Virus record (IMG/VR): IMGVR_UViG_3300020020_000086
Span: 1-42,615 of that record
Direction: 5' to 3' (one strand)
DNA: 42,615 nucleotides
DNA from: a virus
Made by a program: the position numbers and the translations under genes. The notes under the pieces were generated by a model. That model saw only the letters and a list, made by a program, of their open reading frames with translations, had not been told where the DNA came from and searched no databases. Below, piece by piece: positions 13,353 to 42,615 of the stretch. Every line of letters begins with the position of its first letter. The first letter of the stretch is position 1.

Positions 13353-13365
13353 CGGGCTGTCTCCT

Positions 13366-13405
13366 AAAAAAACGGACGGCGGGTCCGGGGGTGGCCCCGC
13401 CGCCC
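13366..13405 (-). terminator. Rho-independent terminator after the PEP-CTERM-like gene
   Basis: On the minus strand GGCGGCGGG (from 13404) pairs with CCCGCCGTCC (to 13374), followed by seven T residues (13372-13366). It separates the secreted-protein gene from the replication block that continues in the same direction. Confidence 0.75.
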
Positions 13406-13415
13406 AGCTCCTCCA

Positions 13416-14183
13416 CTAGGCTGCGACTGCGCCTTGCTGTTCGAGCAGCTTACGCTTGCGCCGCCGCTGGAGCGCGAGAAGACCAAACAGGCCTGCCCCG
13501 AAGTACCAGCCCGCCGGGCCCAATGGCACCGCCTGAACTTGCGGGATCAGAAAAAAACTATCGGGCCCATCGTTTGCGCCCGTGATCCTCGCATAGAACA
13601 TCACGTCGTCGCCGGGATTGATCCCCGCCAACGTCAGGCCCGACAACGTGTAGTCGGGGAAGCCGGTGCCGTTCTGGATCGTTGGCAGCGCGACACCGCC
13701 CGGCCCCGGAGAGAACACGGCGAGGACGGTCTGTTGCGTTAAGTTGAGAAACCAGAAGCTTTCCAGCGTCTGCGCCGTGTTGCTCTGGTTCATGTCGATG
13801 CCGATATCGAACGAGATACGACCGCCGATCGCGTTCAGCAACGGACTGCCGTCCGCAATGGAATAGCCGACGCCAAGCTGGTCGATAGCGAGGCCGGAGC
13901 CGCCACCGCCGGGGACGACCGATGTCGAGAAGAACGACACCGTGTTGGCGTTGCCAGTGTTTCCAAACAGGTTATAGCCAAACCCGCTCGGCTGAAGCGG
14001 TTGGTTCGCGCCGCAGATTAGACAAGGAAGGTTTGTCGTCTGCTGCCCCGGTGCCGTGAGTGTCGGGGCGCTCAGGATGATCGCGCCGCTGGCGTCGAAG
14101 TCGAGCCCACCAAGAATGTCGCCCTTGGCCGGAAGCGTCAGGGCCGCCAGCACGGCGAGCCCTCCTAACAGATAGCGTTTCAT
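13416..14183 (-). CDS. Secreted protein with PEP-CTERM-like sorting signal (255 aa)
   Basis: The N-terminus is a signal peptide (MKRYLLGGLAVLAALTLPAKG). The body is Gly/Asn/Thr-rich and predicted beta (GGRISFDIGIDM, NLTQQTVLAVFSPGPGG), like many exported PEP-CTERM proteins. The C-terminus has VPLGPAGWYFGAGLFGLLAL followed by QRRRKRK, that is a VPLxPA-type motif, a transmembrane helix and an Arg cluster, the tripartite exosortase signal. Eleven more residues (LLEQQGAVAA end) follow, which is longer than usual. ATG 14183 has AGAGGG. It has its own palindrome upstream and terminator downstream, like a moron. The role is unknown; surface alteration is inferred. Confidence 0.75.
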   Translation of the reverse strand: MKRYLLGGLAVLAALTLPAKGDILGGLDFDASGAIILSAPTLTAPGQQTTNLPCLICGANQPLQPSGFGYNLFGNTGNANTVSFFSTSVVPGGGGSGLAIDQLGVGYSIADGSPLLNAIGGRISFDIGIDMNQSNTAQTLESFWFLNLTQQTVLAVFSPGPGGVALPTIQNGTGFPDYTLSGLTLAGINPGDDVMFYARITGANDGPDSFFLIPQVQAVPLGPAGWYFGAGLFGLLALQRRRKRKLLEQQGAVAA

Positions 14184-14200
14184 TGGATACCCTCTGGTTG

Positions 14201-14216
14201 GCCGGATGCATCCGGC
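14201..14216. promoter_or_regulatory. Perfect 16-bp palindrome upstream of the PEP-CTERM-like gene
   Basis: GCCGGATGCATCCGGC is its own reverse complement and ends 18 bases before the ATG at 14183. Size, symmetry and position fit an operator for a dimeric regulator. I could not define the promoter boxes around it. Confidence 0.6.
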
Positions 14217-14238
14217 AGTGAGCGAAAGCCCACCGGGC

Positions 14239-14257
14239 GCGGGCCGCAATGGCCCGC
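14239..14257. other. GC hairpin between nuclease and PEP-CTERM-like genes
   Basis: GCGGGCC and GGCCCGC with a 5-base loop, 12 bases beyond the VRR-NUC stop. There is no clear T-run, so it is at best a weak terminator or mRNA 3'-end stabiliser for the upstream nuclease transcript. Confidence 0.45.
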
Positions 14258-14268
14258 CTCCGGTAAAC

Positions 14269-14637
14269 TCATTTCTTCAGCGCCCCCCACCCACGTAAAG
14301 CATCGATCGCCTCCGGCAGATCCCGGCACAGCGCGTAATGGTGCCCCAGCTTCAGGCACATCTCCTCAAACATCCGCTGCGGCAAAGACTGCTTGCCGCC
14401 CCGGGTCTTCATCTCGATCCAGCCGGTGGCACCCTCGTCCAGCATGACACACAGGTCAGCCACGCCCGGCGTCAGACCTTCGTCTTTCAGGCGTCGGCCC
14501 GCCCAGACACTACGCTTGCCCGCATTGGGGATGGCGAAGGCAAAGACGTCCGGCTGAGCATGCAGCGACAGGTACAGCAGCACTGAAACCTGCAGGCTGT
14601 GCTCGCTGGCGCGGGAAAGGTATTGCTTGGCCTTCAT
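14269..14637 (-). CDS. VRR-NUC domain nuclease (122 aa)
   Basis: The core of the VRR-NUC (PD-(D/E)XK) family is present: an N-terminal helix (SEHSLQVSVLLYL), IPNAGKRS (36-43), GLTPGVADLCVML (54-66) with the catalytic Asp61, WIEMKTRGGKQS (73-84) with E75/K77, and Q87 in the following helix. Phage versions of this small nuclease are thought to cleave branched or Holliday-type DNA, useful for resolving replication intermediates before packaging. ATG 14637 overlaps the preceding stop (ATGA). Length is typical of stand-alone phage versions. Confidence 0.9.
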   Translation of the reverse strand: MKAKQYLSRASEHSLQVSVLLYLSLHAQPDVFAFAIPNAGKRSVWAGRRLKDEGLTPGVADLCVMLDEGATGWIEMKTRGGKQSLPQRMFEEMCLKLGHHYALCRDLPEAIDALRGWGALKK

Positions 14638-14861
14638 TTGCGGCGGCCCCACAGATACTCCCGCACTGCCGTCAGCGTCGTGACCTCGCCGTCCATCCAG
14701 TAGGCGTAGCGGGTCGACACCGGGTAGTAGTGCACGGTCACCGGCCCAAACGCCGCCCGGCCGGTGCTCCGCAGCCCGGCGTCTTCGCAGGCCTTTTTCT
14801 TCAGCAGGAACAGCGCGTGCGGGTCGCCGTGCTGCTTGGCGTAGATCGCGCCCTTCCTCAT
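14634..14861 (-). CDS. Hypothetical small protein coupled to the nuclease (75 aa)
   Basis: ATG 14861 gives MRKGAIYAKQHGDPHALFLL. The upstream open frame is GC-rich noise. The sequence has a basic helical first half with two Cys-containing or Lys-rich turns and a beta second half (VTVHYYPVSTRYAYWMDGEV). Both ends overlap neighbours by ATGA, giving a three-gene coupled set: HTH protein, this protein, VRR-NUC. Not recognised. Confidence 0.7.
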   Translation of the reverse strand: MRKGAIYAKQHGDPHALFLLKKKACEDAGLRSTGRAAFGPVTVHYYPVSTRYAYWMDGEVTTLTAVREYLWGRRK

Positions 14862-41004: not shown

Positions 41005-42615
41005 GCGCGACCTCCACCCGGCGGCTGCGTCATCTTGAATTGATGCTGCGCCGCGCGCTCGGCACTGCGCTGCGCCATGTCGGTCTGCTTCAGGTTGGCC
41101 TGCTGCACTCCCAATTGCGCCTTCTGCCGCGCCAGCTCCATGTCCTGCGTCTTCTCGATGACGTGCGCCTGATGGCTCTCGCGGTTCTGCATCAGCTTTT
41201 CGTTCTGGATCTGCTGCTTGCCCTGCAGCTCGACCTGCTTGTCGCGCGCGCCCATCCCGGCGATCGCTCGATCGTTAGCCAGCTTCTGCTGATGCTGCTT
41301 ATCCTTCTGCACCAGCTCGTCCTGCTTCACCTTCAGCTCGGCCGCGTCGGACATCTTCTTCTGTTCGATCTTGGCCATCTCGATGTCTTTCATCAGCTTG
41401 AGCTTCTCGGCCTCCGGATTGGGCGGCGGCTGCGAGCCCTTCTGCTTCATCAGCTCGACCAGCTCGTCGACCGCGCCACTCAGGCTGCGCCCGGCGCGGA
41501 ACGGAGCCAGCGAGAATTTCAGCAGCTCGCCACAGAACGGCGCGGTCTTCGGCTCGCCCGCGATCATCTGTGCCAGTTGCGGCAGCAGCGTCGACAGCAC
41601 ACCGACAAACTCGGTGCGCCGCTGCTTCTCGGCGTTCTCGTCGGTCTGGATCGTTGAGTCGGTCTCAATGTCGAGCACAAACGTGCGGCCGCGGGTGTCG
41701 CGCAGGAACTTCAGCACCTGCTCGATCGTCGGCTTTTCCGCCAGCTGATTGATGGTCTGCGCGCCAGCCTCCTGCGCCTTCTCCATCTGCTGCATGATCT
41801 CTTGCGCCTGCTCGGGGTTCTGCTGCGCCATCTGCTGAACTTGCGGGTTTTGCTTCAGCATCTCCGCCTGCTGCTTCTGCATGTTGAGCTGGCGCTGCAC
41901 CTCCATGATCTTCTCTCGCACCATCGCCTGCGTCGGCAGGTCGGTCTGGCTCATCTCGACAATGGTGGTGTCCTCAAACTCGTCGAACATCACCTCGATC
42001 GTGATCTCGACCAGATCACGCGCCAGCCGCACCAGCTCGTTCTGCTTGTCCTTGATGCGCTTGCCGCCGTACTCACCCTTCATCTGCTGCGCGCCCAGCG
42101 TCTCGTTCGGATCGGTCGCGCCGCGCATGATGTCGGCCAGCCCCATGATCTGGTAGATGTCCTCGATCACCTGCTTACGCAGCGCCACCAGCGCCGTGAT
42201 GGTCTGCGCAATCATGTCGATCGGCAGCCAGATGATCACTTCCTTGCTGCCGCCAAACGCAGCCCAGTTGCTGATCGGCACCAGCATGCGGCCGGGCGTG
42301 TGCGCCGTCACCGCAGCCTGCACGGCCTCGCTCAGCTCGGCACCACCGGCCGGGTAGAAGCCCTTCGCCTCCAGCGAATAGCTCAGCGCGTGAATGCGCC
42401 CGGTCAGCAGGTTGATCTCGTCGAGCTGGTCGCGATACTGCATCACGTCCGGCACCGGCACCAGCGAGCCGCGCTGCACCGTCCCGTAGGCAGGCTTCGG
42501 ACACGGGAAAAAATGCGTCAGGTCGAGGTGCGGGTCGTCCTCGTCCAGAATGTTCTCGCAGCCCTTTGCCACCCAGACGACGCGCTGCGACGGCCGGTCC
42601 CAGATCTCCCAGAAC
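41001..42615 (-). CDS. Portal protein, C-terminal part (runs across the circular junction)
   Basis: Continues the frame from 834-8: the repeat region encodes the shared segment ending HFFPCPKPA and then YGTVQRGSLVPVPDVMQYRD. Residues in this half include the portal core (LLTGRIHALSYSLEAKGFYP, WLPIDMIAQTITALVALRKQ, QIMGLADIMRGATDPNETLG) and a long Gln/Met/Lys-rich coiled C-terminal region (MEVQRQLNMQKQQAEMLKQN, KMSDAAELKVKQDELVQKD) such as the barrel or crown of podovirus portals. Together with 8-834 it forms about 771 residues. The stop is coupled to the 618-aa gene. Confidence 0.9.
   Translation of the reverse strand, partial: FWEIWDRPSQRVVWVAKGCENILDEDDPHLDLTHFFPCPKPAYGTVQRGSLVPVPDVMQYRDQLDEINLLTGRIHALSYSLEAKGFYPAGGAELSEAVQAAVTAHTPGRMLVPISNWAAFGGSKEVIIWLPIDMIAQTITALVALRKQVIEDIYQIMGLADIMRGATDPNETLGAQQMKGEYGGKRIKDKQNELVRLARDLVEITIEVMFDEFEDTTIVEMSQTDLPTQAMVREKIMEVQRQLNMQKQQAEMLKQNPQVQQMAQQNPEQAQEIMQQMEKAQEAGAQTINQLAEKPTIEQVLKFLRDTRGRTFVLDIETDSTIQTDENAEKQRRTEFVGVLSTLLPQLAQMIAGEPKTAPFCGELLKFSLAPFRAGRSLSGAVDELVELMKQKGSQPPPNPEAEKLKLMKDIEMAKIEQKKMSDAAELKVKQDELVQKDKQHQQKLANDRAIAGMGARDKQVELQGKQQIQNEKLMQNRESHQAHVIEKTQDMELARQKAQLGVQQANLKQTDMAQRSAERAAQHQFKMTQPPGGGRA
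42490..42615. repeat. Terminal direct repeat, right copy (126 bp)
   Basis: Identical to 8-133. It is preceded by CCCGTAG rather than the CTCTTAT seen at the left end. The right version keeps the portal frame open, so it is the biologically credible one. Confidence 0.95.

Follow-up and report, generated by a model that had tools for sequence, protein, structure and literature searches.

The locus and its protein

The window, by which we mean the whole 42,615-nt stretch of DNA analysed here, is an IMG/VR virus record carrying an exact 126-bp repeat at both ends (positions 8-133 and 42490-42615), which makes it probably a complete, terminally redundant phage genome. Its genes include those for the portal, terminase, primase-polymerase, capsid, tail and lysis; a search for an integrase gave no match. 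The portal gene spans the record ends. On the replication-gene side, adjoining a nuclease-like gene, lies a gene for a 255-amino acid protein, with a Shine-Dalgarno-like GAGGG ahead of its ATG (Table 1). A hunt for an empty site found no close relatives of either flanking gene.

The protein begins with MKRYLLGGLAVLAALTLPAKG, which is signal-like by eye, and ends with VPLGPAGWYFGAGLFGLLALQRRRKRKLLEQQGAVAA, with a soluble domain in the middle. An N-terminal signal (by inspection) is thus combined with a motif, a helix and a basic cluster at the extreme C-terminus, the architecture of PEP-CTERM cargo. Open reading frame and sequence both confirm the exported-type protein with a tripartite C-terminal tail described in the first-pass annotation. 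A crude scan of the window revealed no convincing second PEP-CTERM-like gene, and a stricter scan missed even the known one.

Table 1 Features of the 255-amino acid gene and its surroundings in the window.
Feature	Position	Strand	Basis
Exported-type 255-aa protein with PEP-CTERM-type tail (P0001)	13416..14183	-	ORF and family
Signal-peptide-like N-terminal segment, residues 1-21	14121..14183	-	Sequence; present in complete relatives
CxxC motif C54-L-I-C57	14013..14024	-	Each Cys kept in 98% of the family
NDGPDSFF motif, residues 204-211, end of ectodomain	13551..13574	-	Almost invariant
Sorting-type C-terminal tail VPLGPAGWYFGAGLFGLLALQRRRKRK, residues 219-245: proline motif, membrane helix, basic cluster	13449..13529	-	
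Nuclease-like protein, upstream neighbour	14269..14652	-	phrog_824; weaker endonuclease and Holliday junction resolvase matches
Rho-independent terminator: GC-rich hairpin, then T7	13361..13415	-	Folding z -3.2; directly downstream
Strong hairpin between upstream nuclease gene and 255-aa gene	14225..14270	-	Folding z -5.4
16-bp perfect palindrome in 5' leader, GCCGGATGCATCCGGC	14201..14216	.	Exact; arms covary in L001 and L023

An AlphaFold model of the window protein (pLDDT 82) comprises strands and a C-terminal helix (residues 224-254). Foldseek returned nothing at E <= 0.001 in the PDB or among viral models, and a sequence search of the PDB with the family profile gave nothing meaningful. 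A second fold comparison yielded beta-sandwich and carbohydrate-binding-like folds with Z up to 7.6. We rejected the fold as a guide to function, because Z-scores of 7.6 or less lie within the range of common arrangements and Foldseek was null.

Signals around the gene

The palindrome, the upstream hairpin and the downstream terminator on which the first-pass annotation had based a separately regulated gene are all present in the window. By itself, the palindrome was rejected as strong evidence, since four perfect palindromes of 16 bp occur in the window, where about 1.1 would be expected. It gains weight from its conservation in two relatives from viral contigs, L001 (AGCCAGATGCATCTGGCT) and L023 (GTCAGATGCATCTGAC): the GATGCATC core is kept, while the arms change in compensating pairs. 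On this pattern, it probably serves the subgroup comprising the window, L001 and L023 as a leader or operator element. Neither the palindrome nor the terminator is shown by most relatives. A terminator of their own was found in 5 of 63 relatives compared with 4% of control genes, with no enrichment; the terminator layout was therefore rejected as a general family trait. No sigma-70 promoter was found for the window gene. Upstream of the palindrome, a hairpin with a TTTC loop is present in the window (14216-14262) and in L001 (9910-9991); the stems differ and still pair by eye.

Comparison of the tail with curated sorting-signal models

The tail of the window protein is a VPLGP variant in which the Glu of PEP is missing. 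Among NCBIfam models, it scored below cut-off against both EppA (20.3 bits, cut-off 90; E 5e-4) and MYXO-CTERM (13.6 bits, cut-off 20; E 0.06), and a Pfam search with the window protein gave no match. Five of the ten same-ectodomain relatives tested, on the other hand, pass at least one curated cut-off: L031 and L034 exceed those of NF035944 (PEPxxWA-CTERM) and TIGR02595 (PEP-CTERM), L028 that of TIGR03370 (VPLPA-CTERM), and L045 and L064 that of TIGR02595. PF07589 matches were observed in 8 of 63 family members (E <= 0.01). The curated-model matches of the relatives vanish once the tails are removed, so they stem from the tail.

The search with sorting-signal models proposed in the first-pass annotation therefore had a divided outcome, with the window protein under all cut-offs but half of the relatives tested above at least one. 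The PEP-CTERM-like reading itself stands by way of relatives that pass the PEP-CTERM, PEPxxWA and VPLPA cut-offs, but not by way of the window tail alone, whose scores are weak. Because its own tail reaches none of the curated cut-offs, we refer to the window protein as PEP-CTERM-like.

A tail under all model cut-offs would also suit an ordinary membrane anchor. The product would then be an inner-membrane protein facing the periplasm, where it might, for example, block the entry of other phages' DNA with no sortase involved; known superinfection-exclusion proteins are often membrane-anchored. A plain anchor, however, has no need for a conserved V-P-x-P ahead of the helix, and in the family alignment the V is present in 94%, the first P in 98% and the second P in 92% of members. 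Nor does it call for one ectodomain to be paired with tails of several curated PEP-CTERM subtypes, and we regard this explanation as unlikely.

A family in uncultivated phages

The first relatives were aligned, and the alignment was used to scan viral contigs. This gave 186 uncultivated viral stretches that encode relatives, some of them near-copies, and the best 80 were kept; nearly all of these best 80 of 186 end in a proline motif, a hydrophobic stretch and a basic terminus. The family was not found in plasmids or in the isolate phages of the phage collection, where no relative of the 255-amino acid protein turned up anywhere, and so none in the Rhizobium phage RHph_I3_18, whose capsid is 62% identical to that of the window. 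The first-pass annotation had called such a gene unusual in a phage, which is true of isolate phages but not of uncultivated ones, where it is common.

Among the neighbouring proteins are matches to several distinct terminase families and to major head proteins, head proteases, integrases, endolysins, DNA polymerases and HNH endonucleases. The most widespread neighbour cluster occurs in at most 10 of 79 loci, and an integrase is present in 9 of 34 phage records. The family is thus spread among unrelated phages, and these very diverse neighbourhoods, with unrelated genes beside the relatives, support the earlier view of an accessory, moron-like gene. The gene belongs to a spreading accessory cargo family and is no one-off. 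Like phage morons and superinfection-exclusion membrane proteins, it is a single accessory gene found at varied sites in unrelated phages, and its product is of exported type and membrane-anchored. To our knowledge, no PEP-CTERM-type sorting tail has been described for known proteins of these kinds.

Selection on the family is strongly purifying (dN/dS 0.06-0.20 over 18 pairs), and the ectodomain has 28 invariant columns in the family alignment. Such selection argues against host-derived cargo that is useless to the phage. A related explanation, that the genes sit on bacterial fragments misfiled as viral, draws on the existence of distant bacterial homologues (see below) and on some short IMG/VR contigs with VPGPxxGAGxPG tails that could be bacterial. 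It conflicts with the terminal redundancy of the window, a phage genome in which portal, terminase and capsid genes are present, and with the terminases, capsids, integrases and endolysins found beside the relatives. Furthermore, a pattern scan of 84,980 bacterial and archaeal species revealed no close relative, and a profile search of 397 genomes of one alphaproteobacterial order found no family member, yielding tail-only matches in genome G041 alone. In either form, useless cargo or misfiling, this explanation is already disfavoured and we consider it highly improbable.

Among the best 80 of the 186 stretches, a second PEP-CTERM-like gene lies nearby in seven loci (L005, L027, L028, L066, L068, L071 and L080), of which L066, L068 and L071 are near-copies; L007 and L016 were left out because their rows are the family gene itself. 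A distinct second gene of this kind stands directly beside the family gene in L066 (9198-9938), L080 (3404-4102) and L028 (6835-7413).

Tail replacement on a constant ectodomain

Under our own pattern definitions, the tails of 65 distinct rows fall into 47 VPxPxxGxGxP, five VPxPxxWLF, five PEPxxWA, five PEPGSL, two PLPASLP and one other. On a tree built from the ectodomain only, tail class changes 11 times against a minimum of 5, with the label still clustered (shuffled mean 17.7). Tails have thus been replaced on a constant ectodomain. At the DNA level, the window and L001 are 82% and 93% identical in the last two 60-nt blocks, which encode the tail, compared with mostly 49-76% before them. 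In parts of the ectodomain L001 and L023 reach 97% identity, but their tails and downstream DNA differ. Recombination near the ectodomain-tail boundary is the simplest reading of these patterns. The reason for the swaps, we infer, is that they fit one phage protein to the sorting enzymes of different hosts. The family would then offer natural tail-swap experiments for matching tails to sorting enzymes, which is difficult to do from bacteria alone.

Bacterial homologues and known PEP-CTERM proteins

A profile search of 385 alphaproteobacterial genomes identified distant homologues in three of them (G812, G917 and G989). The corresponding proteins, L227, L228 and L229, are apparently chromosomal, carry a PCVIG..SC motif and have the tails VPLPAALPLFASALL, VPEPASLALLGAGL and VPEPSVLGLLGAGL; L228 and L229 pass TIGR02595. 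A profile of the phage ectodomain only finds L227, L228 and L229 with E-values of 3e-13, 1e-8 and 9e-5, respectively (Z 5000), and reversed and shuffled controls for this profile gave no matches. Because a tail-free ectodomain profile still detects the bacterial proteins, the phage family is best regarded as forming a viral branch within a family of bacterial PEP-CTERM proteins. Phage and bacterial proteins share the ectodomain, homologous without the tails, and PEP-CTERM-type tails. They differ in that the bacterial proteins are 27-32% identical to the window protein, have C-V-I-G-x-x-S-C in place of the phage CxxC and, in two of the three, GGREQFF in place of the phage DGPDSFF.

The phage proteins resemble the cargo of PEP-CTERM/exosortase systems (TIGR02595; TIGR03370, VPLPA; NF035944, PEPxxWA; Haft et al. 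2006, PMC1569441) in their signal-like N-terminus, little-known ectodomain, lack of any other obvious membrane segment and C-terminal proline motif, helix and basic cluster, and in having relatives that pass the models. Unlike that cargo, they are phage-carried with no exosortase in the phage, the VPLGP tail of the window stays under the cut-offs, and the genes occur singly or in small numbers rather than as a genome-wide set. The flocculation-associated PEP-CTERM protein PepA (NF033554; PMC9850573) is exported and affects bound exopolysaccharide, and a bacterial PEP-CTERM protein in Aquincola influences matrix binding (PMC9850573). The similarity of the phage family to PepA is confined to the tail, with no ectodomain match once tails are removed; as the match depends on the tail, homology to PepA was rejected. 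Judging by titles and the openings of abstracts, none of the papers searched appears to concern phage-borne PEP-CTERM proteins.

Host, sorting enzyme and proposed role

Known PEP-CTERM cargo is encoded on bacterial chromosomes and is associated with exopolysaccharide. For the window, the capsid match to RHph_I3_18 noted above, together with a portal part 42% identical to that of the same Rhizobium phage, points without proof to an alphaproteobacterial host. The DNA polymerase was rejected as a host clue, as it gave partial, weak matches only. More generally, the uncultivated phages carrying the family probably infect soil alphaproteobacteria.

No phage-encoded exosortase (PF09721) was found in 39 phage records. 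The first-pass annotation had suggested looking for exosortase genes in candidate hosts, where they proved to be present but rare: PF09721 was detected in 21 of 397 sampled genomes (5%) of the order of G041, a candidate host order. Within the genus of G041 it was found in 16 of 117 genomes, and within the family of G039 in 6 of 248. XrtV-like enzymes near or above the XrtV cut-off occur in three of five exosortase-bearing genomes tested. Rhombosortase was rejected as the processing enzyme, as all ten genomes tested had generic rhomboids only, under the cut-off.

We consider it probable that the 255-amino acid gene is an accessory phage gene of PEP-CTERM cargo type, whose tail a host enzyme would be expected to recognise, releasing the ectodomain outward. 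Judged from sequence, the protein would be exported by the Sec route via its signal peptide. From sequence and model, a beta-sandwich ectodomain would then lie in the periplasm, with the C-terminal tail holding the protein in the inner membrane. A host exosortase or comparable membrane enzyme would recognise this tail and free the ectodomain to the surface or the exopolysaccharide matrix. The most likely use, which we put forward at somewhat below even chances, would be an altered surface or matrix of the infected cell, most plausibly hindering superinfection by competing phages. The carriage of such a tailed, exported-type protein suggests that these phages alter the surface of their host cells; if so, a widespread phage family that swaps sorting tails would be changing infected cells by way of the host's own surface-sorting route.

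It is the tail that matches host-type signals, and one phage can carry several such genes in tandem. Both observations would be in keeping with a protein that ties up the host sorting enzyme as a decoy or competing substrate and so alters the host's own matrix proteins, the ectodomain being secondary. However, a decoy would not require the strong ectodomain conservation seen in the invariant columns and the low dN/dS values, and we judge this explanation very unlikely.

The VPGPxxGAGxPG tail

The commonest of these tails, VPGPxxGAGxPG, was searched as a degenerate DNA pattern in genome contigs and in viral contigs. The genome contigs, covering 84,980 bacterial and archaeal species, contained eight stretches with this tail, all from alphaproteobacterial metagenome-assembled genomes (MAGs). 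At least 120 stretches were found in the viral contigs (L089-L201), and the proteins they encode form about 25 ectodomain clusters. Several phages carry two or three VPGPxxGAGxPG-tail genes, often in tandem. Because the two collections are of unequal size and composition, and some of the short viral contigs could be of bacterial origin, the apparent enrichment in phages counts as a strong lead and not as a measured ratio. This tail was found in no bacterial genomes other than the MAGs AP_7, AP_8, RBC079 and SupBloom_066 (L081-L088); two of these carry it on several different proteins, yet PF09721 was detected in none of the four.

Neither PF09721 nor XrtV had a match in the VPGPxxGAGxPG-tail genomes G039-G042, an absence that is not firm given that these are metagenome assemblies. 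The first-pass annotation had held that the tail implies a host with an exosortase, a conclusion undercut by these tail-bearing bacterial genomes with no detectable exosortase. Such genomes would also agree with the plain membrane anchor considered above. Since the few bacterial bearers have no detectable exosortase, we tentatively propose an unrecognised host enzyme that processes this largely phage-specific VPGPxxGAGxPG-helix-RRRR tail, phages having possibly made C-terminal sorting a general means of display. A short remnant with the VPGPIVGAGLPG motif, with no helix after it, is present at G235:C1:2301314-2301345 (L210), in a genome otherwise free of the tail.
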